Source: an uncultured Victivallaceae bacterium (GTDB taxonomy: Bacteria > Verrucomicrobiota > Lentisphaeria > Victivallales > Victivallaceae). From it: DNA of 47,961 bases. The stretch covers positions 1 through 47,961 of the forward strand of contig CALXXL010000016.1 of the NCBI GenBank assembly GCA_944392655.1, in the 5' to 3' direction. Each line of letters opens with the position of its first letter. Positions within the stretch are counted from its first letter, which is position 1. Below, piece by piece: positions 34,574 through 46,668 of the stretch. A program made the translations under genes and the position numbers. The notes under the pieces were generated by a model. That model did no database searches, had not been told where the DNA came from, and saw only the letters and a list, made by a program, of their open reading frames with translations.

Positions 34574-34588
34574 TCAAGGGAGGTGCCG

Positions 34589-35059
34589 ATGAAAGAAGCA
34601 GAAAAGCGTGAAGAGAAGATGCCGGAAAAGGGAGCGGTAAAAGATCCGTTGGCGAACTGTGCTTCGGAGCTTGGCAACATCCGGTTGCATGACAATGTGA
34701 TATCGAACCTGGTGCGTCGTGCGGTGTTGAGCATACCTGGAGTAAGCCGTCTGTCCGGCAGTTCTCTGGTGGACAATCTTGCGGAGATAGTAGGCAGCCG
34801 TAAGATGCAGGATCGTGCGATAGCGATCATAAAGGACGAGAAGGACAGCAGCAAGGTCGAGATAGAGATCAAGCTGAATATGTATTTTGGTTATAAGGTG
34901 CGTGAAGTAGCGGAAGCGGTGCAGCATGCGGTGATAGAGTCGGTGGAAAACACTGCGAACATCACGGTAGCGGCGGTAAATGTCTCTATCCAGGAGATAG
35001 ATGATCCGCCGGAACCTGCGTCGGAAGCCAGTGAAGAAGAATCGGGAATAACCGGTTGA
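34589..35059 (+). CDS. Asp23/Gls24 family protein
   Basis: A 156-residue protein of the alkaline-shock Asp23/Gls24 (DUF322) family. The core runs from about residue 30: IRLHDNVISNLVRRAVLSIP, GVSRLSG, then KVEIEIKLNMYFGYKVREVA and VENTANITVAAVNVSIQEI. In Firmicutes, Asp23 is an abundant protein held at the membrane by AmaP and tied to envelope stress; the gene often sits next to accB-accC, as here. ATG 34589 has AAGGGAGG six bases ahead. The charged 25-residue N-terminal extension and acidic tail are unrecognised. Confidence 0.85.
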   Translation: MKEAEKREEKMPEKGAVKDPLANCASELGNIRLHDNVISNLVRRAVLSIPGVSRLSGSSLVDNLAEIVGSRKMQDRAIAIIKDEKDSSKVEIEIKLNMYFGYKVREVAEAVQHAVIESVENTANITVAAVNVSIQEIDDPPEPASEASEEESGITG

Positions 35060-35076
35060 TATAGATTAATATGTAC

Positions 35077-35105
35077 CGCGCCGCCGTAATGAATACGGCG
35101 GCGCG
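35077..35105 (+). other. Perfect hairpin between the Asp23 and AmaP-like genes
   Basis: A 12-bp GC-rich stem (35077-35088 with 35094-35105) and an ATGAA loop, followed by CTGTTAAACGGGG and not by a T run. It is therefore not a standard intrinsic terminator; it may set the ratio of the two products by mRNA processing or stability. Confidence 0.85.
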
Positions 35106-35133
35106 CTGTTAAACGGGGTAGGAGATTGCGGCG

Positions 35134-35664
35134 ATGTTTCATCTGGAGGAATATTGGGTCAGGATATTTGAGAATGACTTCAGTTATGGCTTTTTCTGGG
35201 GTGCGTCGGTTGTAGTCGGCGTACTGTTTCTGCTGTGGTTATTGAATCTTTTGAGTGCTTTATTCAGTCGGACGAAGCGCTGTCATGAGATAAGACTGTC
35301 TTCCGGTGGCGGAGAGATCGCGTTGTCCGAGGGTGCGGTTATTGCTGCGGTAAAGATACTCGGAGAAAGCTTTCCCTGGTTTGAGTTGCGTCGAATCCGT
35401 CTCTGTTTCCGTCGTGGGTGTGGGTATCAACTGCGAATGACGTTGAGTTATGAACTGTCGTGTGACCGTTCACTGCCGGAAGAGGTGGAAAAGTTCCGTA
35501 ACAGAATAAAGAGTGGCTTATCGGATATGCTTGGGATGCCTGAAAACGTAGAGATCTGCGTCAATCTTTCCGGGGTAAAATCTGGGAAGTGCGTGAGAGA
35601 CGGGAAAGGTCTGGAGCAATCTGCGGAGTCATATCCGGAGACGGAGTCAGGCATATTGGAATGA
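35134..35664 (+). CDS. AmaP-like membrane anchor of the Asp23 protein
   Basis: A 176-residue protein with one membrane segment at about residues 19-42 (FFWGASVVVGVLFLLWLLNLL), and a cytoplasmic part that contains LSSGGGEIALSEGAVIAAV, resembling the strand-helix start of Asp23-type domains, and a late SDMLGMPENVEICVNLSGV segment. Size, single anchor and place next to an Asp23 gene fit the alkaline-shock membrane anchor AmaP; the match is by layout and context more than by strict motifs. maf follows after one base. Confidence 0.7.
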   Translation: MFHLEEYWVRIFENDFSYGFFWGASVVVGVLFLLWLLNLLSALFSRTKRCHEIRLSSGGGEIALSEGAVIAAVKILGESFPWFELRRIRLCFRRGCGYQLRMTLSYELSCDRSLPEEVEKFRNRIKSGLSDMLGMPENVEICVNLSGVKSGKCVRDGKGLEQSAESYPETESGILE

Positions 35665-35665
35665 T

Positions 35666-36235
35666 ATGATAATTCTGGCGTCGGGGTCGCCGCGTCGGGC
35701 TGAATTGCTGAGGCGGCTGTATAAAGAATTTGCGATAATAGTGCCGCATGTATCGGAGTTGAGATACGCTGATGATGCGGCACTGTTAGTAGAGTTGAAT
35801 GCGCGTATAAAGGCGGATGCGGTGTCGGGAGATCACTTCAGTGATCTGGTGATCGGGGCGGACACGGTAATAGAGCACCGTGGTCATATACTTGGGAAGC
35901 CGTCGGATCTGGCGGAAGCTGCTTCGATATTGCTGGATCTGTCCGGCTCGGAACACCGTGTATTGAGTGGAGTGGCATTAATATTCAAGGGGATAACGCT
36001 CAGCTGGGTGGAGGTTACGCGGGTGCGTTTCCGCGAGCTTGATAAAGCATTAATCATGAATTATCTCTCTTTGGTTCCGGTGCTGGATAAAGCGGGTGCA
36101 TATGGCATACAGGATCATGGTGAGATGCTGGTGGAGAGTATATCTGGAGATTTGGATAATGTAATTGGTCTGCCGGTAGCTTCGTTAAAGCGTCACATAT
36201 ATGAGCTTGAGCGCAGTGTGGCGCGGATACAATAA
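35666..36235 (+). CDS. Maf family nucleoside triphosphate pyrophosphatase
   Basis: Hydrolyses non-canonical or excess (d)NTPs to monophosphates; Maf proteins also affect septum formation. Motifs: LASGSPRRAELLRRL (residues 4-18), VIGADTVIEHRGHILGKP, and DKAGAYGIQDHGEMLVESI, where the KAGAYGIQ form is typical of the YhdE (dTTP/UTP) group. 189 residues is usual. It begins one base after the AmaP-like gene stop, so it belongs to the acc-asp23 transcript. The 68 bp after it are AT-rich with possible promoter elements for the next unit. Confidence 0.92.
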   Translation: MIILASGSPRRAELLRRLYKEFAIIVPHVSELRYADDAALLVELNARIKADAVSGDHFSDLVIGADTVIEHRGHILGKPSDLAEAASILLDLSGSEHRVLSGVALIFKGITLSWVEVTRVRFRELDKALIMNYLSLVPVLDKAGAYGIQDHGEMLVESISGDLDNVIGLPVASLKRHIYELERSVARIQ

Positions 36236-36303
36236 AATTGGATTGAGAAGTATTTTACGGGGATAAAATCCTGATTATATATATTATAAAGAGAGAATAA
36301 ATT

Positions 36304-36924
36304 ATGTTGTCATTATCATTAAGATGCGGATTACTGTTTTCCGGAGTGTTAATTTGTCTGGCTGGTTGTGGTACGTTGCCGGAATGTTCGCCGGAATCAG
36401 CGGTTACAGTGGAGGCGGCCTCAGAGGAGCCGGAATCGTTGGATTTGAATTTGCTTAAAGACAGCACTTTAGGAGGAGCTCCCGGGGAGTCGTTGCCGAG
36501 TTACTGGCCGATGTACCCTTTGGGGGTGATAGGCGAGGTTGAGCCGGTCTATTTTGAGCCGTTTGACGAGCCTTTTTTTGCGCGTGTGGACACCGGGGCA
36601 GAGACCAGTTCGATAGATGCGCGTGATATAAAGGAGTTTGAGCGTGACGGTAAAAAGTGGGTCAGTTTCTATGTAGAGCATCCGGATACAGGAGAGCGTT
36701 CACTTTTTGAGTGTCCGGTAAAGCGTCGTTTGCGAATCAAGCGTGCTTTACAGGATGAGCGTCGTGTTGCGGTGGATCTGGTAGTTCACATAGGCAAAGA
36801 GGTGGTCAAGGGAGAGTTCACTTTGAGTGACCGTGATGATTTTGAGTATCCGGTATTACTGGGGCGCAATATACTTTCCGGTCTGGCGTTGGTGGATGTC
36901 TCCCGCAGCAACACGCTGAAATAG
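36304..36924 (+). CDS. Retropepsin-like (RimB-type) lipoprotein protease
   Basis: A 206-residue lipoprotein: signal peptide with lipobox CLAGC (Cys at 22), then an acidic spacer, and from about residue 75 the PF05618-type domain once annotated as ATP-dependent zinc protease. ARVDTGAETSSIDA (about 96-109) is the aspartic protease-like D-T-G-A loop, and YPVLLGRNILSGLALVDVS is the second conserved element. The family is retropepsin-like, and members often adjoin RimK-type ligases, as here. Substrate unknown; it would act outside the cytoplasm. It begins the cluster that runs to the flippase. Confidence 0.85.
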   Translation: MLSLSLRCGLLFSGVLICLAGCGTLPECSPESAVTVEAASEEPESLDLNLLKDSTLGGAPGESLPSYWPMYPLGVIGEVEPVYFEPFDEPFFARVDTGAETSSIDARDIKEFERDGKKWVSFYVEHPDTGERSLFECPVKRRLRIKRALQDERRVAVDLVVHIGKEVVKGEFTLSDRDDFEYPVLLGRNILSGLALVDVSRSNTLK

Positions 36925-36937
36925 GGGTATATTGTCG

Positions 36938-38491
36938 ATGAATAGATTAAAGAAGCTGTTTACGGTGCGTCGTGTATTGATGCTTCTGCTGATAATTTCG
37001 GTAATATTTGCGGCGGTCAGTATAAAGCGCAAGGTAGAGGTGTGGGGATTCACCTTTGATCCCGGTTCAGTTACGCGGGTATGGACGCTGGAAGCGCGGA
37101 TAGATTTTGAGGCGGATGATGATTTGGTTCGTGCGAGTCTTGCGGTGCCGGTGAGTTCGCCTGGGTTTCAGATAGAGAGTGTTCCTGCGGTATCAGACGG
37201 TTACAGTTTTGCGTTGGAGAAGGACACTGGGACGAACGGTACGGGTCGTGCGATCTGGAGTTCATTTACCGAGCGTGAAGATGACCAGCGTCTGTTTTAC
37301 CGTCTTCTGGTGTACGATGCACCCGGGGTGGCGTTGGCGGAAAAGGCGGACGGTGCGGTGCTTGCGCGGGTGGATCTGAGTGAATCGCAGCGTGCGGCGG
37401 CAGAGAGTCTGCTTGAGCGTGTAAAGAATAGAGGAGGAGACATTCCCTCCGGTGTATTGAAAGAGCTGAATTCCTCTACTCCCGGGGCGGAGGTGGAGTT
37501 GCTGCTGCCGGGGCGGAAGAGTGCGGAAGCGTTGTGTCGTACGGCGGGCCAGGTGCTGTCGCTGGCGGGAATTCCGAGTCGTACGTCGATCGGTTTACAG
37601 TTGGAGGATCAGCGTAATTTTCTGATGCCAGAGTTGCGTCTTGAAGCGGTGGTAGATGGAGAATGGCATATTTACGATCCCAACAGTGGAGAAAATGGTT
37701 TGCGCCGTGGTTTTCTGTTATTCCGGCGTGGAGGGGAATCGCTGCTGGATTTGGAAGGTGGACATGATGGCCGGGTGCGTTTTTCGGCGTCGAATTCGGC
37801 GGTAGGCAGTTTTGCCTTGAGTCCGCGCCGTGTATTGGGTGAGCGTCTGGACGAATCGCTGTTTCACTATTCGCTGTACAGTCTGCCATTGAATGAGCAG
37901 GCGGCGTTCCGTTGGCTGTCGATCATTCCGTTATCGATACTGATAGTGGTGGTATTGCGCAACATGGTTGGTTTGCAGACGATGGGAACGTTTGCGCCGA
38001 TACTTCTTGCGCTGGCGCTGGTGGAGACGGGGCTGTTGGCCGGGTTGATACTGTTTGCTGTTATAATAGCGCTGGGTTTGGGGTTGCGCAATGGTTTAAG
38101 CCGTTTAAATCTGCTGTTGGTGCCGCGTATAGCTGCGGTAGTGATTGCGGTTATTCTGATAATGGAGATCGTTGCGGTTCTATCGGTTCGTTTTGGTTTT
38201 GGTTCCGGGAGTGCGTCGGCGGCGTTTCCGATAATCATCATGGCGTGGATAATCGAGCGTGCGGCGATCATAGTCGAGGAAGATGGTATCCGCAATGCTC
38301 TGCGTCAGATGTTCATGACGTTGGCGGTAACGCTGGCGGTTTATTTTATCGTGAGCAACGTGTATGTGCGTCACATCATGTATGTATTCAATGAATTGAA
38401 TATCTGTATAATGATATTGGTAATGCTTATCGGGACCTATTCCGGCTATCGTCTTACAGAGTTGCGTCGTTTCCGGGAGTTGGTAAAATGA
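36938..38491 (+). CDS. Inactive transglutaminase fused to a 7TM domain
   Basis: A 517-residue membrane protein. One N-terminal helix (about 10-30, VLMLLLIISVIFAAVSI) is followed by about 290 extracytoplasmic residues with a transglutaminase-like region (AEALCRTAGQVLSLAGIPSRTSIGLQLE and EWHIYDPNSGENG, seen in part), where the catalytic Cys-His-Asp set is not evident. From about 325 come seven hydrophobic helices starting RWLSIIPLSILIVVVLRNM. This layout is the UUP1/7TM-transglutaminase family found beside retropepsin-like and RimK-related genes. It overlaps the next gene by four bases (ATGA). ATG 36938 is chosen over TTG 36932 because of the upstream GGGG. Confidence 0.82.
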   Translation: MNRLKKLFTVRRVLMLLLIISVIFAAVSIKRKVEVWGFTFDPGSVTRVWTLEARIDFEADDDLVRASLAVPVSSPGFQIESVPAVSDGYSFALEKDTGTNGTGRAIWSSFTEREDDQRLFYRLLVYDAPGVALAEKADGAVLARVDLSESQRAAAESLLERVKNRGGDIPSGVLKELNSSTPGAEVELLLPGRKSAEALCRTAGQVLSLAGIPSRTSIGLQLEDQRNFLMPELRLEAVVDGEWHIYDPNSGENGLRRGFLLFRRGGESLLDLEGGHDGRVRFSASNSAVGSFALSPRRVLGERLDESLFHYSLYSLPLNEQAAFRWLSIIPLSILIVVVLRNMVGLQTMGTFAPILLALALVETGLLAGLILFAVIIALGLGLRNGLSRLNLLLVPRIAAVVIAVILIMEIVAVLSVRFGFGSGSASAAFPIIIMAWIIERAAIIVEEDGIRNALRQMFMTLAVTLAVYFIVSNVYVRHIMYVFNELNICIMILVMLIGTYSGYRLTELRRFRELVK

Positions 38492-39456
38492 GCTGGCTGA
38501 AGGGCTGGGTTACTCCCGGGGATCTCCGTGCGGCGGGAGTGCTTGGGATGAATGAGCGCAATTACGGTTATATTCTGAAGGAGAACAAGCGCCGCAACTT
38601 CAAGAATGTGGATGACAAGCTGATCACGAAGCAGCTTGCGCATCGTTTTGGCGTATCGTCGCCGGGTTTTATCGGACTTATTTCATGCCAGTACGAGATC
38701 CGGAAATTTGAGGAGCTGGTTGCCGGGCGTAATGAATTTGTGATAAAGCCGACGCGTGGTTCCGGTGGTCGCGGCATAGTAGTGATCAAGGGGCGGAGTG
38801 ACTCCGGCGGTTACATTGGCAGTAACGGGAAAGTTGTTCCGTTGTCCTATATCCGGGAACATCTGTCCAATATTCTTAGTGGCTTGTACAGTTTAGGCGG
38901 GGCGCCGGACAAAGCTCTGATTGAGGAGTGCGTAGAGTTCACTGATGCGTTTGACGGGTTCAGTTACCAGGGGGTTCCGGATGTGCGTATAATTGTATTC
39001 CGTGGTTATCCGGTAATGGCGATGATGCGTTTATCGACGGCGGCCTCCGGTGGGCGTGCGAATCTGCATCAGGGTGCGGTTGGGGTAGGAATAAGTCTCT
39101 CCAGCGGCCGTGCGCGGCGTGCGGTGATGAACGGGAGGATAGTGGAGAAGCATCCGGACACGGGGCGTGACTTATGCAAAGAGCTTGTGGTACCGCGTTG
39201 GCGTGAACATTTAAACATAGCGGCCGGCGGCTATGAGATGACAGGTCTTGGTTATTTTGGAGCGGACATAGTACTGGACCGGAAACGTGGTCCGATGCTG
39301 CTGGAGTTGAATGCCCGTCCCGGATTAGCGATACAGATAGCGAACGGTGAGGGACTTGGCCGTCGTCTTGAGCGTTTGAAATCGGGCATATCCGGATTGG
39401 AATTATCGCCTGCGGAGCGGGTGGACTTTTCGTTGAAGCTGTTTTCCTCGGATTGA
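38488..39456 (+). CDS. RimK-related alpha-L-glutamate ligase-like ATP-grasp protein
   Basis: A 322-residue ATP-grasp enzyme. Elements: FVIKPTRGSGGRGIVVIKG (ATP lid, about residues 85-103), LIEECVEFTDAFDGFSYQG, DVRIIVFRGYPVMAMMRL, GRANLHQGAVGVGI, and the Mg-binding end MLLELNARPGLAIQIANG. It matches the RimK-related ligase group that always travels with the 7TM-transglutaminase gene. Such enzymes join an amino acid or amine to a carboxylate; the acceptor is not known. It probably adds residues to a peptide or envelope molecule handled by its membrane partners. Confidence 0.85.
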   Translation: MSWLKGWVTPGDLRAAGVLGMNERNYGYILKENKRRNFKNVDDKLITKQLAHRFGVSSPGFIGLISCQYEIRKFEELVAGRNEFVIKPTRGSGGRGIVVIKGRSDSGGYIGSNGKVVPLSYIREHLSNILSGLYSLGGAPDKALIEECVEFTDAFDGFSYQGVPDVRIIVFRGYPVMAMMRLSTAASGGRANLHQGAVGVGISLSSGRARRAVMNGRIVEKHPDTGRDLCKELVVPRWREHLNIAAGGYEMTGLGYFGADIVLDRKRGPMLLELNARPGLAIQIANGEGLGRRLERLKSGISGLELSPAERVDFSLKLFSSD

Positions 39457-39479
39457 GAAGTGGATTATATTTCGTAAAG

Positions 39480-40817
39480 ATGAGAAACTTGTTTGAGACA
39501 TTGTTAAATTTTTTCCGGCACGGGGGAGTGCGTCTTTACGGGAGCAATATAGTCTATCTTTTCAGTGAGCGTGCGATAGCGTTTATTTTCGGCTTTGCGG
39601 TTGGGGTCTACGTTGCGCGTGAGCTTGGTGCCGATGCCTATGGACTTCTGACCTACGCGGTATCACTGTCGTCGATATTCGGGGTTATAATGACGTTTGG
39701 GTTGGAGTCGGTGATGGTGCGTGAGCTGGTATCGCGTCCGGCGGAGCGTGATGAGATACTTGGAACCGGAGCGTGGCTGAAGGCCGGTGGTTTTCTGTTG
39801 ATGCAGCTGATTCTGGCGCTGTATATTGTTATTACGCGTCCTCCCTTGCGTACGGGGTTATTGATAATGATAATCTCGTCGGGATATTTATTTCAGATAC
39901 TTCAGGTGCTGGAATTTTATTTTCAGGCGGAGGTTTGCAGTAAATATATCTCTCTATCCAAATTATTTTCGCTGACAATCTACTGTTCGCTGCGCTTTGT
40001 GCTGATATTATGCGGTGCGGATTTAATCTGGTTTGCTGTGGTGGAAGCATTGAATATGCTGTGTATAAGTGCGGGATACTTATGGTTTTACATTCGTGGG
40101 GGACATGGTGTCGGGAGCTGGTGTTTTTCGCGTATTGCGGCGGTGCGGATGTTGAAATCGGGGTGGCCGTTTTATTTAAGTTCGTTAGCGATAATGTTAT
40201 ACATGCGGATAGATCAGGTGGTGATCAAGAGTTTTCTTGGCAATGCTGAAGTTGGCATATATTCGATAGCCGTGCGTCTGGTGGAACTGTTTTACTTTAT
40301 ACCGGTAATCGGGTGTGCATCGCTTTTGCCGGCGCTTATCCGGGCGAAGGAGCGTTCAGAGGAGCTTTACCAGCGTCGGTTATCGGGTCTGTTTGGTCTG
40401 ATGTTCTATATGGGGCTTGGTTGTGTATTGCTCTGCTGGTGTGGCAGTTATCTGATCCGTCCGGTATATGGGGCAGAGTATGCCGGTGCGGCCGGTCTGT
40501 TGCGGAGTTACAGTTGGGTGTTGTTGTTTATATTCACGAGTCAGCCGTTGGCGCAGTGGTATATAGTAGAGGGGATGCAGCGTTATGCGTTATTATTTGC
40601 GCTGGGTACGGCGTTGCTGAATATTGGTTTGAATCTATTGCTGATAAGGTTTTACGGTGTTTATGGTGCGGTATCTGCGACATTGGGGTCTTATTTGCTG
40701 ATATTGTTATTTGGTTTGTTTTTGCCCGGCACGAATAAAGTTACCTGCCTGCGTATTTCTGCTCCGTGGCGTATAATTTCGTTTTGCCGTGATGGATTGC
40801 GTGGAATATTGCAATAA
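39480..40817 (+). CDS. Wzx-type oligosaccharide flippase
   Basis: A 445-residue membrane protein with about twelve predicted helices, of the MATE/Wzx-like polysaccharide export superfamily. YLFSERAIAFIFGFAVGVYVARELGADAYG in two overlapping pieces (first helix and the ARxLG-x-YG turn), and later DQVVIKSFLGNAEVGIYSIA, are family hallmarks. It would flip a lipid-linked sugar or similar molecule to the outer leaflet. No glycosyltransferases adjoin it. ATG 39480 is chosen; a TTG at 39453 would overlap the previous stop. The ribosome binding site is poor (TAAAG). The 87 bp after it carry the sigma-factor promoter region. Confidence 0.85.
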   Translation: MRNLFETLLNFFRHGGVRLYGSNIVYLFSERAIAFIFGFAVGVYVARELGADAYGLLTYAVSLSSIFGVIMTFGLESVMVRELVSRPAERDEILGTGAWLKAGGFLLMQLILALYIVITRPPLRTGLLIMIISSGYLFQILQVLEFYFQAEVCSKYISLSKLFSLTIYCSLRFVLILCGADLIWFAVVEALNMLCISAGYLWFYIRGGHGVGSWCFSRIAAVRMLKSGWPFYLSSLAIMLYMRIDQVVIKSFLGNAEVGIYSIAVRLVELFYFIPVIGCASLLPALIRAKERSEELYQRRLSGLFGLMFYMGLGCVLLCWCGSYLIRPVYGAEYAGAAGLLRSYSWVLLFIFTSQPLAQWYIVEGMQRYALLFALGTALLNIGLNLLLIRFYGVYGAVSATLGSYLLILLFGLFLPGTNKVTCLRISAPWRIISFCRDGLRGILQ

Positions 40818-40904: not shown

Positions 40905-42320
40905 ATGGAAACTCCGGCAGAAATGGCAGAAGAAGAATTGACCTCACAGGCAGAGAGCAGTTATTCGGACTTTGATGTTGATGATGAGAAGAGTTCTGTT
41001 CCATCGGCGCTGACGAGTTATTTTCGTCGTATACATGAACTTCCCCGGCAGACGGCAAAGAGTGCTGAAGAGCTTCGTACAGGAGTTATTCAGGCGGAGG
41101 ACAGATTCTATAATACCTTCAATGGCTTTGGTTATGTATTGAAAGAGCACATCCGTTTATTGGACAATGTGCTGAATGGCGGATCTTCTGCGGGGGATCT
41201 GTTTATGCCCTCGTCGGTGCAGCTTCTGGGTAGCAATCCTTCTGAGATCCGTGAGAGTATTGGCCGCTGGCAGAAGGAGTTGTCGCAGCACTACCGCAAA
41301 TGGCATGCGCTGTTTTTGCGTCGCTCCGGGGAAAAATCGGAAGAAGAGCTCTCCGCACTGCGTTTGGAAGCGGGGGAACTTCTTGGCAAATACCGTTTAA
41401 ATTCGGACTATTATGCAGATTTTCTGAGTGCGTTGTGTGAATTATTCATGATAACGCCGCATGAAAAACTTGAGCTGTCGAATCCGGTATTGCGTGCGGA
41501 GTCGGAGCGTGAATTTATCGAGGAGAAGTTTCTGCTGGACTTTTCGCAGATTCCGGATGCGGTAAACGGGGCGTTGAGTGCGAATCTCGGGCTTCAGGCG
41601 GCGCGTAATGAGATGCTGGAGCAGAATCTTCGTTTAGTGGTAACGATAGCGAAGAGTTACTTCCGTTCCGGGGTTCCGGTGGGAGACATAATCCAGGAGG
41701 GGAATCTCGGTCTGTTGCGTGCGATCGAGAAGTTTGACTTCCGTTTGGGCTATAAATTCTCGACCTATGCGATCTGGTGGATCAAGCAGAACATCACGCG
41801 TGCGATAGCGGAGCATTCGCGCATAATCCGTATACCATCGCACATGGTGCAGACGATCACGGCGATGAACAATGCGGAGCAGCGGTTCATAATGGAGAAT
41901 GGGCGTGAGCCTTCGGTGGAAGAGCTTGCGATGCAGTTGGAGATGCCGGTAGCGCGAATCAATGCGATCAAGAAGATGGCGCGTCAGCCGATATCCCTGC
42001 AGTCGCCGCTGGATCGTGAAGGCGGTGGGGTATTGGAGGACACTTTGGCGGACACGGAGGAAAGTTCACCGGTCTCCATGGTATCGGATGATCTGCTGCA
42101 CCGTCAGCTGCACTATGTGCTTTCGCTGCTGCCTGAGCGTGAGCAGACGATTATCATGGATCGTTTCGGGCTGTTTGGTCATACGCCTAAAACGCTGTCG
42201 GAGCTGAGTGCCAAATTCGGTCTTACGCGTGAGCGTATCCGCCAGCTGGAAGCGAAGGTGATGCGTAAATTGCAGTCTCCGGAGATGCTGCGTTATTTTG
42301 ACCGTGGCAAACAGAAGTAG
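40905..42320 (+). CDS. RNA polymerase sigma-70 factor (group 1 or 2)
   Basis: A 471-residue sigma factor. Region 1.2 is weak (LTSYFRRIHELPRQTAKSAE, about 36-55); region 1.1 is absent. A long helical non-conserved region follows to about 235. Region 2 is strong: NLRLVVTIAKSYFRSGVPVG, GNLGLLRAIEKFDFR, YKFSTYAIWWIKQNITRAI, keeping the Trp pair and the Gln and Thr that read the -10 box. Region 3 (EPSVEELAMQLEM), and region 4.2 LTRERIRQLEAKVMRKL, are intact. It should recognise ordinary -10/-35 promoters like those in this window. Whether it is the main RpoD or a second factor cannot be told. No Shine-Dalgarno is clear (GAGAAAAAA). Confidence 0.9.
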   Translation: METPAEMAEEELTSQAESSYSDFDVDDEKSSVPSALTSYFRRIHELPRQTAKSAEELRTGVIQAEDRFYNTFNGFGYVLKEHIRLLDNVLNGGSSAGDLFMPSSVQLLGSNPSEIRESIGRWQKELSQHYRKWHALFLRRSGEKSEEELSALRLEAGELLGKYRLNSDYYADFLSALCELFMITPHEKLELSNPVLRAESEREFIEEKFLLDFSQIPDAVNGALSANLGLQAARNEMLEQNLRLVVTIAKSYFRSGVPVGDIIQEGNLGLLRAIEKFDFRLGYKFSTYAIWWIKQNITRAIAEHSRIIRIPSHMVQTITAMNNAEQRFIMENGREPSVEELAMQLEMPVARINAIKKMARQPISLQSPLDREGGGVLEDTLADTEESSPVSMVSDDLLHRQLHYVLSLLPEREQTIIMDRFGLFGHTPKTLSELSAKFGLTRERIRQLEAKVMRKLQSPEMLRYFDRGKQK

Positions 42321-42328
42321 GTAATTTT

Positions 42329-43366
42329 ATGTCGACATCGATAAAGATAGAGAATCTGAGCAAATCGTACACCCGTGGTCAGCGTGTGCTAGAGCCTTTG
42401 AATCTTGAGATAGGAGCGGGTGAGCTTTTTTTTCTGCTTGGGCCTTCCGGGTGCGGCAAATCGACGTTGTTGCGGATACTTGCGGGTCTGGTGGAGCCGG
42501 ATGGCGGCCGTATCTGGTTTAACGGTGAAGAGGTTGGCAATCTTGCGCCGGAGGATCGCCGTGCGGCGATGATGTTTCAGAGTTACGCGTTATGGCCGCA
42601 CATGACGGTATATGAGAATGTGGCGTTCGGGCTGAAGGTTGCGGGGGTTGACCGTGGGGCTATCCGCCGCCGGGTGCTTGATGCTCTGGAACTGGTGCGT
42701 TTATCCGGCTATGAAAACCGTCGTATTCCGTCGTTGTCTGGGGGGCAGCAGCAGCGTGTAGCGCTGGCCCGTGCGATAGTGGTGGAGCCGGCGGTGCTGC
42801 TGCTGGACGAGCCGTTGTCGAATCTTGATGCGCGTTTGCGTGATGAGATGCGGATGGAGATCCGGCGGATTGCGCGTGAGCGTAATCTTACAACTATCTA
42901 CGTTACGCACGACCGCAGTGAAGCCCTGGCGTTGGCTGACCGCATGGCGGTACTGAATAACGGCCGGGTGGTGCAGCTGGGTACGCCGCGAGAGCTTTAT
43001 GGCAATCCGGTGAACCGTTTTGCGGCGGAGTTTCTGGGGGATGCCAATATAATAAAAGGGAAAGTTACCGGTACAGGGGTAGCGGAGACCGTGCTTGGGG
43101 AGTTGCATTTTTCCGGGGATGGAGAGATAGGCGGAGAAGTTGAGCTGATGTTCCGTCCGGAGTCGGTGGAGATAGTTGGTGCTACGGGAGGAAATGTCTT
43201 TCCGGCGCGGATAGTCTCAACGCTTTACGCGGGAGGTTTTTCCACCTGTTCAGCGGAGTCGTCCGGGGTGGAGCTCAAGCTGACGCTGCCCGGTGCGGAC
43301 GAGCCGCCGTCCGGAGAGATTCTGCTTCATGTGCCTGAAGCCGGCCTGAAACTGCTGAAGGAGTAG
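42329..43366 (+). CDS. ABC transporter ATP-binding protein (FbpC/PotA type)
   Basis: A 345-residue ATPase of an import system. Walker A LGPSGCGKSTLLRILAG (about residues 36-52), Q-loop MMFQSYALWPHMTVYENV, signature LSGGQQQRVALARAI, Walker B LLLDEPLSNLDARLR and the switch His in YVTHDRSEALALADRM are intact. The last 110 residues are a TOBE domain. The closest group transports ferric iron, putrescine/spermidine or sulfate. It follows the sigma gene by 8 bp and precedes the binding protein by 7 bp. Confidence 0.93.
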   Translation: MSTSIKIENLSKSYTRGQRVLEPLNLEIGAGELFFLLGPSGCGKSTLLRILAGLVEPDGGRIWFNGEEVGNLAPEDRRAAMMFQSYALWPHMTVYENVAFGLKVAGVDRGAIRRRVLDALELVRLSGYENRRIPSLSGGQQQRVALARAIVVEPAVLLLDEPLSNLDARLRDEMRMEIRRIARERNLTTIYVTHDRSEALALADRMAVLNNGRVVQLGTPRELYGNPVNRFAAEFLGDANIIKGKVTGTGVAETVLGELHFSGDGEIGGEVELMFRPESVEIVGATGGNVFPARIVSTLYAGGFSTCSAESSGVELKLTLPGADEPPSGEILLHVPEAGLKLLKE

Positions 43367-43373
43367 GGTATTA

Positions 43374-44981
43374 ATGGGCAAAGGATTCTATATCGCGCTG
43401 GCGGTATTTCTGCTGCTGTTGCTGCTGCCGTTTTACTTTTACGAACGTGAGGGTGACGGGAGTCTGGATCTTCTGCCCGGCGGGGATGCGGTGGATACGC
43501 TGGTAATTATCGCGTCGCATCCGCGTCAGGTCAAGTGGGAGTTTGAGCGTGCGTTCCGGGATTATTACCGGGCGAAGCACGGGCGTGAAGTCCGGATAGA
43601 CTGGCGTGATGTCGGCGGCACGTCGGATGCGGCGAATTATATTGACAGCCGTTTTGCGTCGGAGTTCCGCAACTATTATGATGCAAATTATCCCGGGGAG
43701 TGGAGCGCGGCCACGGCGGCGGGCTTCAACGATGCGGCGTATGACGATGTTCCCGGCGACACGGCGGAAGCGCAGGCGCGCCGCCGTTTTTTAGCGTCGG
43801 ATGTATCGATTGGGATCGATCTATTGTGGGGCGGCGGCACCTATGAGCACGAGAGGAATGCGCGTCGCGGCTACGCGGTGGACGGCGGAGTGGCGAAGCG
43901 TCATCCGGAATATTTTGTTGATTCGGTGATTCCGGAATTTTTCACGGGCGAGACCTTGTATGATGCGGGCGGCCGTTTTTACGGCGGCTGTCTGTCGAGC
44001 ATGGGGATCTGCTGTAATCCGGAGCGTTATGCGGAGTTGGGATTGCCGTTGCCGGTGAGGTGGAGTGACCTGGGTCGTCCGGAGTTATACGGTTATGTTG
44101 CGGTGGGCGATCCGAGTAAAACCGGTTCAGTGGCGAAGTGTTTTGAATTGATTATTCAGCAGGAGATGCAGGAGGCGCGTCGCCGTGGGGAGGATGACGA
44201 TGCCGGCTGGCGCAATGCGCTTACGCTGTTGAAGCGTATTATCGGCAACAGTTACATCGTTACGGATGCGGCGGGCAAGATACCGCGTGAGGTTTCGTCT
44301 GGTTCCGGAGCGGCGGGTGTATGTATTGACTTCTACGGATTTCTGGAGGCGGAGTGGAGCGAATCGCGTTCTGGCGGGAAAGAGCGTATCCGTTATGTGA
44401 TGCCGGAGAACGGCAGTACGATATCGCCGGATCAGATCCAGCTTCTGCGTGGAGCGCCTAACCGTCAGGTAGCGGAGGAGTTTCTGGATTTTCTGTTGAG
44501 TTACGATGCGCAGAAATTGTGGAGTTACAAAGCTGGAACGCCGGGTGGACCGGAACGCTACACATTGCGCCGTCCTCCGATCCGGCGTGATCTTTACACG
44601 CCGGATAGCGTCTGTTACATGCCGGATCCGGACTATAATCCTTATGAATCGGAGCTGATCTACCAGCCTGAACTTACCGGACGTTATTTTTCGCTGATCC
44701 GTACGCTGATAAAATGCGTGATGGTGGATACGGTGGATGATTTAAGGCGTGCGTGGGGGGCGATAATTGCGGCGGGAGGTCCGGATGCGGTGCCTGAGGC
44801 ATACGCGGCATTTACGGAGCTTCCTTTTGATTACAGAGAAGCGTCGCACATGGCGGAGCTTTTGACGGCGAACGGTGATGAGTGGGATATGTACGATGTT
44901 ATCCGTTTGCGTGCCGGCTGGACGGAGAGTGCCCGTAACAGCTACCGCCGTGCGATTGAGCTTGCGGGGGAGGGCAGATAG
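43374..44981 (+). CDS. Membrane-anchored ABC substrate-binding protein
   Basis: A 535-residue type-2 periplasmic binding protein. One N-terminal helix (about 6-24, YIALAVFLLLLLLPFYFY) with no lipobox and no clear signal peptidase site suggests it stays anchored. The domain begins near residue 42 (TLVIIASHPRQVKWEFERAF), with WGGGTYEHERNARRGY, GICCNPERYAELGLPLPVRW and VAVGDPSKTGSVAKCFE, as in FbpA-type proteins. It is about 200 residues longer than those; an insert at about 75-135 and a long C-terminal extension account for this. The ligand is not shown by the sequence. Confidence 0.85.
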   Translation: MGKGFYIALAVFLLLLLLPFYFYEREGDGSLDLLPGGDAVDTLVIIASHPRQVKWEFERAFRDYYRAKHGREVRIDWRDVGGTSDAANYIDSRFASEFRNYYDANYPGEWSAATAAGFNDAAYDDVPGDTAEAQARRRFLASDVSIGIDLLWGGGTYEHERNARRGYAVDGGVAKRHPEYFVDSVIPEFFTGETLYDAGGRFYGGCLSSMGICCNPERYAELGLPLPVRWSDLGRPELYGYVAVGDPSKTGSVAKCFELIIQQEMQEARRRGEDDDAGWRNALTLLKRIIGNSYIVTDAAGKIPREVSSGSGAAGVCIDFYGFLEAEWSESRSGGKERIRYVMPENGSTISPDQIQLLRGAPNRQVAEEFLDFLLSYDAQKLWSYKAGTPGGPERYTLRRPPIRRDLYTPDSVCYMPDPDYNPYESELIYQPELTGRYFSLIRTLIKCVMVDTVDDLRRAWGAIIAAGGPDAVPEAYAAFTELPFDYREASHMAELLTANGDEWDMYDVIRLRAGWTESARNSYRRAIELAGEGR

Positions 44982-44985
44982 TTTT

Positions 44986-46668
44986 ATGAACCGTTTCTTA
45001 TTGCGTACATTTCTGCGTTATCTGGTTGCGTTGCCGGTTCTTGGTTTTCTGGTGATATTTTTATTGTATCCGATCTACGCGGTAGTGGCGGGTGGTGCGG
45101 ATATAACGATGATAGGGGAAGTATTTAAAAGTTCGCTTTACCGTGAGGGGCTGGTAAACGCGCTGCTGATAGCGCTGGGGACCACGCTGATATCGTTTAT
45201 CATATCGCTGCCATTGGCGTTGCTGTACAACCGTTTTGAGTTTCCCGGGAAAGAGGTGTGCAATCTACTGATAATGGCGCCGATGATTCTGCCGCCGTTT
45301 GTTGGTGCGTTAGGATTCCAGCAGCTTTTGGGGTATTACGGGGTATTCAATGCGGTGCTGACCGGTCTGGGATTTGAGCGTATAAACTTCCTTGCGGGGG
45401 AGGGGCGTTTCTGGGCGGTCTGTGCAATCGAGGCATTGCATCTGTATCCGGTATTGTATTTAAATTTAGTCACATCTTTGGCGAATGTCGATCCGGCGCT
45501 GCATGAAGCGGCGCGCAATCTCGGTGCGGGGTGGTTTACGCGTCTGCGCCGTATAACCTTGCCGTTGATCCGTCCGGGTATATTTGCCGGTGGGAGTATA
45601 ATTTTAATCTGGAGCTTCACGGAACTTGGTACGCCGTTGATGTTCGGTTTTACGAATGTGACTCCGGTGCAGGTATTTTTCGGAATAACGGAGTTGGAGC
45701 GTAACGCGATGCCTTTGGCGTTGACGGTGGTGATGCTTGCCGGCTCATCATTACTGTATATAGTTGGGCGTCTGCTGCTGGGCCGTCCGGGGGCGGCGTC
45801 GGCGGTCAAGGGAACGCTGGGCGCGTCGGCGGAGCGTCTTGCCGGAGGTTGCCGTTTTCTGCCGTTGTTATTATTTGGTCTGGTGACCTTTGCCGCGGTG
45901 CTGCCGCACATATCGCTGATACTTTTAGCTTTTTCGGGAGACTGGTACAACACGGTGCTGCCGTCCGGCTATACCTTTCTGAATTTCGAAAATGCGCTGT
46001 CGGACTCTCTGGTGATACCGAGTATAATCAACAGTCTGCAATACTCATTTACGGCGATGCTGCTGGCGGTATTGCTCGGGGTGCTGATATCGGTGATAGT
46101 TGTGCGTTGGAAGCTGCGTGGCGGGTGGATATTGGATGCGTTGTCGATGCTGCCGTTAGCGGTGCCCGGGATTGTCATGGCGTTTGGTTTTCTGGTATTG
46201 AGTTACCGCAATCCGGTATTGAATACGTTATTTGATGTGGAGAACAATCCCTTGCTGCTGCTGGCGGTGGCGTACGCGGTGCGCCGTCTGCCCTATGTGG
46301 TGCGTTCGGTGAGTTCCGGGCTGGAACAGACACCGGAAGAGCTGGAGCTTGCGGCGCGTAATCTTGGTGCGGGTTCGTTTACAGTTTTAAAGCGTATAAC
46401 GCTGCCGCTGATACTGGCGAATGTGATAGTTGGCGGTTTATTTGCCTTCAGTTTTTCGATGCTTGAGGTATCTGACAGTCTGATACTGGCGCAGAAGAGT
46501 GAATTTTATCCGATAACGAAGGCGATATACGATCTGTCGCAGATCAATGGTTCCGGTACATTCATTGCGTGTGCGTTTGGCGTATGGTCGATGCTGTTTC
46601 TGGGATCGACGATAGCGTTGGCTGGAGCGGTGCTTGGCCGGAAGATCGGAGCGATCTTCCGGCTGTAG
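44986..46668 (+). CDS. ABC transporter permease, two fused domains (FbpB type)
   Basis: A 560-residue inner-membrane protein with two BPD_transp_1 units, about twelve helices in all. Each unit carries an EAA loop: EAARNLGAGWFTRLRRITLP (first) and LAARNLGAGSFTVLKRITLP (second), which contact the ATPase dimer. Such fused permeases are usual in ferric-iron (FbpB/SfuB) systems. ATG 44986 is chosen because the preceding open frame overlaps the binding-protein gene, whose stop is only 4 bp upstream, and GGGGGAGGG lies before it. Confidence 0.92.
   Translation: MNRFLLRTFLRYLVALPVLGFLVIFLLYPIYAVVAGGADITMIGEVFKSSLYREGLVNALLIALGTTLISFIISLPLALLYNRFEFPGKEVCNLLIMAPMILPPFVGALGFQQLLGYYGVFNAVLTGLGFERINFLAGEGRFWAVCAIEALHLYPVLYLNLVTSLANVDPALHEAARNLGAGWFTRLRRITLPLIRPGIFAGGSIILIWSFTELGTPLMFGFTNVTPVQVFFGITELERNAMPLALTVVMLAGSSLLYIVGRLLLGRPGAASAVKGTLGASAERLAGGCRFLPLLLFGLVTFAAVLPHISLILLAFSGDWYNTVLPSGYTFLNFENALSDSLVIPSIINSLQYSFTAMLLAVLLGVLISVIVVRWKLRGGWILDALSMLPLAVPGIVMAFGFLVLSYRNPVLNTLFDVENNPLLLLAVAYAVRRLPYVVRSVSSGLEQTPEELELAARNLGAGSFTVLKRITLPLILANVIVGGLFAFSFSMLEVSDSLILAQKSEFYPITKAIYDLSQINGSGTFIACAFGVWSMLFLGSTIALAGAVLGRKIGAIFRL
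46637..46663 (+). other. Hairpin at the 3' end of the permease gene
   Basis: An 11-bp perfect stem (46637-46647 with 46653-46663) within the last codons of the permease, with no T run after it on either strand. It may protect the mRNA 3' end or help stop polymerase between convergent genes only 11 bp apart. Confidence 0.8.

Follow-up and report, generated by a model that had tools for sequence, protein, structure and literature searches.

The closest described system is the rlo operon of Pseudomonas aeruginosa, in which RloA, RloB and RloC have been characterised genetically (Lormand et al. 2025, PMC12239564). In this bacterium, the secreted RloA retropepsins cut chains of at least eight glutamates in vitro, and cells that have lost all three RloA proteases become sensitive to low osmolarity and to cell-wall drugs (PMC12239564). 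Upon deletion of rloB or rloC, the osmotic defect due to RloA loss is fully rescued and the other defects are partly rescued (PMC12239564). The suppression is most naturally explained if RloA has to process a product of RloB and RloC. Regulation by VxrB is described in Vibrio, and 96% of the RloB matches reported in the 2025 study belong to Proteobacteria (PMC12239564). A second related system is the RimK-RimB pair of Pseudomonas, which makes and cuts poly-α-L-glutamate in the cytoplasm and acts on RpsF (PMC11957791).

The window (the whole stretch of DNA that was analysed, 47,961 nucleotides) is the entire contig C16 of a 2.34-Mb genome, probably that of a Victivallales-type Lentisphaeria bacterium. 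The four genes listed in the initial annotation were recovered at the same positions as four tandem open reading frames, all on the plus strand, and the Pfam matches of all four exceed the curated cut-offs. The features of the locus are as follows.

36236..36303, + strand: maf-rloA gap of 68 nt, A/T-rich with a TATATATTATAA stretch, possible rlo promoter (from sequence)
36304..36924, + strand: rloA, retropepsin-like aspartic peptidase, predicted lipoprotein, DTGA active site (PF05618, 8.5e-32)
36932..38491, + strand: rloB, N-terminal TM helix, periplasmic inactive transglutaminase-like domain and C-terminal 7-TM domain (PF14400, 4.3e-25, and PF14402, 1.4e-77)
38488..39456, + strand: rloC, RimK-like cytoplasmic ATP-grasp ligase (PF14397, 3.6e-81)
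39453..40817, + strand: Wzx-type polysaccharide flippase, adjoining rlo and judged outside the rlo system (PF01943, 3.1e-23)

We consider that the region 36304-39456 is probably a Lentisphaeria rlo operon, in which RloC would glutamylate, RloB would handle the product at the membrane and RloA would trim it, the flippase being a chance neighbour. The conserved trio had been rightly recognised as known in the initial annotation, where it was called poorly understood; it is the rlo operon (PMC12239564), which is better understood than was assumed there, and it is now found in a Lentisphaeria bacterium, in a little-noticed phylum.

As in P. aeruginosa, the window contains the three genes in the same order and with the same domain architecture: an exported retropepsin, an inactive transglutaminase-7TM protein and a RimK-like ATP-grasp enzyme, with the catalytic and polyglutamate-binding residues. 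It differs from the P. aeruginosa operon by its Lentisphaeria host, by an RloA that is a predicted lipoprotein and by the flippase gene that follows. Moreover, the window genome encodes a single PF05618 protein, whereas P. aeruginosa has three RloA paralogues and RimB, and, unlike in P. aeruginosa, no RimK-family match was found in it. Thus, the redundancy that hid the single-gene phenotypes in Pseudomonas is absent here. RloA and RloC form the same enzyme-type pair as RimB and RimK, with a common active-site motif and fold, but the window RloA is exported, a membrane component (RloB) is added and nothing points to a ribosomal substrate. The matches to the NCBIfam models RloA3, RloA and RloB are strong but lie below cut-off: the window RloA matched RloA3 at 1.4e-31 (109.4 bits, below the 210-bit cut-off) and the window RloB matched the RloB model at 2e-80 across its full length (271 bits, below the 900-bit cut-off). 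Judged by these scores, the trio is therefore a homologous operon and not the same curated equivalog. What is established for it is the sequence, the fold, the active-site residues and the gene order.

A signal peptide with an LAGC lipobox was predicted for RloA, and the DTGA motif lies at residues 96-99; D96, G98 and A99 are invariant in 48 out of 48 homologues. Alignment with the structures 9g58 and 9g59 (PDB) placed R94, R141, R154 and R177 of the window protein at the equivalents of the basic residues by which P. aeruginosa RloA binds polyglutamate. In all 48 homologues, the positions equivalent to P. aeruginosa K46 and R92 are occupied by R or K, and those equivalent to R114 and R137 by R. 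The alignment thus indicates that the DTG motif and the polyglutamate-binding basic residues are retained in the window RloA; polyglutamate cleavage itself is shown for the Pseudomonas enzyme only (PMC12239564).

RloC exceeds the cut-off of TIGR02291, 'alpha-L-glutamate ligase-like protein' (401.9 versus 314.2 bits), and is about 55% identical to its gammaproteobacterial homologues. Its invariant ATP-grasp residues are K87, E146, D165, R167, R181, N192, H194, D260, E273 and N275, and it possesses the D-x-R ... R ... R-x-N-L-H-x-G motif common to RimK. With the AlphaFold2 model of RloC (pLDDT 92.6), the top Foldseek matches were RimK poly-α-glutamate synthetase (E 6e-12), while with VIA-align the nearest folds were ArgX, LysX and RimK, which were tied; the Z score against the glutamate-binding ArgX/LysX was 16. 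Cyanophycin synthetase and Ddl also matched the model. By its active-site signature and predicted fold, RloC is probably a RimK-type ligase, for which the use of glutamate is predicted.

ATP-grasp enzymes such as ArgX/LysX, D-Ala-D-Ala ligase and the dipeptide ligases ligate other amino acids or cap small metabolites. RloC could likewise ligate another amino acid instead of glutamate, or cap a small metabolite, with RloA cutting that product or an unrelated protein, and the matches to ArgX, LysX, cyanophycin synthetase and Ddl recall that the substrate is not fixed by the ATP-grasp fold. We regard this explanation as rather improbable, as the active-site motif is of the RimK type, the best Foldseek matches are RimK and the partner protease RloA retains the basic residues that bind polyglutamate. 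For RloB, whose AlphaFold2 model (pLDDT 89) shows a single TM helix at the N terminus, a transglutaminase-like domain in the periplasm and a 7-TM domain, the rival explanation concerns the role rather than the substrate: the protein would be a sensor or regulator instead of a carrier, its transglutaminase-like domain reading the state of the envelope and gating RloC. The periplasmic domain, which resembles 3isr (Z 14.7) and TgpA (Z 7.2) in structure, is non-catalytic, the Cys/His positions of active transglutaminases being unconserved, and this agrees with sensing, as do the osmotic and cell-wall phenotypes reported for Pseudomonas and the VxrB regulation in Vibrio (PMC12239564). However, all 32 invariant columns of RloB are located at residue 276 or beyond, nearly all of them in the membrane domain and not in the periplasmic one, a distribution more in keeping with a core for transport or catalysis than with sensing only. 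A sensor role is thus somewhat unlikely. Since the invariants are concentrated in the 7-TM part, the membrane domain is likely the working part of RloB; the window protein is about 33% identical to its gammaproteobacterial homologues.

The predicted 7-TM domain of RloB (residues 310-519, window positions 37859-38488) also displayed a weak structural resemblance to RnfA and RnfE (Z 7.2 and 7.1). When the 7-TM and Rnf alignments were submitted to profile comparison, the probability was below 1%, versus 99% for the RnfA/RnfE control. With Z values of only about 7 and this profile result, an RnfA/RnfE-type fold was considered unsupported.

In the proposed mechanism, cytoplasmic RloC would use ATP to add α-linked glutamates, in the manner of RimK, either onto an acceptor associated with the membrane or to form a free chain. 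RloB, with its strongly conserved 7-TM domain and its non-catalytic transglutaminase-like domain in the periplasm, would bind the product, present it or pass it across the inner membrane. Finally, RloA, a lipoprotein retropepsin facing the periplasm, would cut the chain and so prevent its accumulation, which would otherwise perturb the envelope. This putative division of labour between ligation, membrane handling and trimming is supported by homology and by the Pseudomonas genetics. The general role of amino-acid ligation and membrane handling that the initial annotation had assigned to the trio is supported in a glutamate-type form. The glutamate chemistry is probable; we infer the acceptor, a transport function for RloB and an equivalent role of the operon in the present bacterium. 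The modest identity of RloB and RloC to gammaproteobacterial homologues and the below-cut-off NCBIfam scores of RloA and RloB speak against this mechanism. In a more specific and tentative version, which is possible though we would not favour it, RloB and RloC would constitute a membrane-coupled device for poly-α-glutamate synthesis and export: RloC would polymerise, the invariant-rich 7-TM domain of RloB would form the core for translocation or transfer, and the chain would be released or trimmed by RloA. If true, this would represent an envelope polyanion system across Proteobacteria and PVC bacteria.

The fourth gene had been taken to hint at a lipid-linked rlo product, which the neighbouring Wzx-type flippase would carry to the other side of the inner membrane, the four genes forming one pathway. 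At the locus itself, the arrangement is favourable to this proposal. The flippase lies on the same strand and starts either at TTG 39453, which overlaps the rloC stop by 4 nt, or, more likely, at ATG 39480, 23 nt past it; no promoter consensus was detected at the rloC-flippase junction, and the gene is not among other polysaccharide genes in the window. With a start within the rloC stop or 23 nt after it, the flippase may be co-transcribed with rlo in this genome. The reading frames of rloB and rloC overlap by 4 nt. A possible shared transcript alone is, however, weak evidence for shared function. In the neighbourhood comparison proposed with the initial annotation, a flippase HMM run over 1594 ORFs around 120 rlo loci returned 0 matches, while the same HMM did pick up the flippase of the window together with three further Wzx proteins encoded in its genome. 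Six other genomes of the family contain both RloB and a close flippase homologue, always unlinked, on different contigs in five of them and 400 kb apart in the single-contig genome G076. In addition, the Pseudomonas phenotypes and their suppression came with rloABC alone, no flippase being named (PMC12239564). The flippase is thus linked to rlo in no relative examined, which is the first of the two refuting observations named with the initial annotation, the other being a separate promoter of the flippase. The functional link is not supported, and a single pathway of four genes is highly improbable.

Homologues of the flippase were found in 22 of the 78 family genomes, that of the window included, and the best of them within the family share 36-44% identity with it. 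Elsewhere they sit in exopolysaccharide loci, adjoining glycosyltransferases, UDP-GlcNAc 2-epimerase, DegT aminotransferase, cytidylyltransferase and MarR-EPS-like regulators (the latter below cut-off). The window genome itself has four further PF01943 matches, three of which are above cut-off. The gene at 39453-40817 is one of these Wzx/PF01943 exopolysaccharide-locus flippases, but it stands alone beside rloABC and not among glycosyltransferase genes. On the basis of the HMM search over the 120 loci, the genome-wide co-occurrence and the neighbourhoods of the homologues, the flippase was rejected as an rlo component. By these comparisons it is most likely a chance neighbour, drawn from the exopolysaccharide repertoire and linked to rlo by accident in one genome. 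Discarding it removes a misleading clue to a lipid-linked rlo product. The genes of about 200 aa found upstream of flippase homologues, all matching TIGR04176 (MarR_EPS) below cut-off, are located at the following positions; they represent a longer variant of the MarR_EPS regulator of exopolysaccharide loci.

L124:7241-7897
L125:5368-5997
L126:7124-7864
L127:1430-2014
L128:4363-4983

The surroundings of the four genes were also compared with those in relatives. The block ftsK-rodZ-aroQ-accBC-asp23-amaP-maf is kept in several family genomes, with neither rlo nor flippase between or beside its genes, and parts of the sigma-factor/ABC-transporter block on the other side recur in G007, G062 and G065, again without rlo or flippase. 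The rloABC genes and the flippase are thus flanked by two blocks that, in relatives, occur in their absence, and their juxtaposition is, for this reason, most likely a local rearrangement. An ancient maf-rlo-flippase-sigma synteny was rejected on the same grounds. Promoter and terminator scans showed no clear excess over shuffled sequences, nor did the consensus scan bearing on the 68-nt maf-rloA gap reveal a clear excess of sites. Upstream, in the region 34583-36235, Asp23 and AmaP-like genes lie between accC and maf; they encode envelope proteins of the alkaline shock type, which are known from Gram-positive bacteria. Downstream, the region 40905-46668 encodes an RpoD-like sigma factor, followed by an ABC ATPase, a binding protein and a permease; a second sigma match of this genome is located on contig C1.

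RloB was detected in 41 of 388 sampled genomes of the phylum and, within the family, in 11 of 78; it was not found in G007, which belongs to the same genus. Intact trios are present in about a tenth of the sampled genomes of the phylum, to be set against the 96% proteobacterial share of RloB matches (PMC12239564). Of the 120 loci, about 117 are distinct, and nearly all of them show the genes in the order RloA-RloB-RloC; this recurrence in other loci means that the trio is not due to chance. By contrast with this constant order, the gene 3' of rloC varies (cyclophilin, Fur-type regulator, thiamine-pyrophosphate enzyme, aminomutase, ABC ATPase), and the trio has no constant neighbour across the rlo loci examined.

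In the RloB and RloC trees, the window sequences fall within a clade composed of Lentisphaeria and four gut proteobacterial sequences (support 100/99 for RloB and 96/91 for RloC). A gammaproteobacterial transfer into this genome was rejected on account of this position within the Lentisphaeria clade. The trees bring the trio closer to a different family of the order than to the majority of members of its own; the window branch is long and its exact placement unsure. Inheritance was likely patchy, or exchange took place inside the order. The rloABC genes of L016, L021, L049 and L063, which come from rumen/gut MAGs labelled 'proteobacterium' or Alphaproteobacteria, also branch within the Lentisphaeria clade. 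Their branches are long, so that the exact placement is unsure, and their position inside this clade suggests that these four operons were transferred between phyla in the gut.
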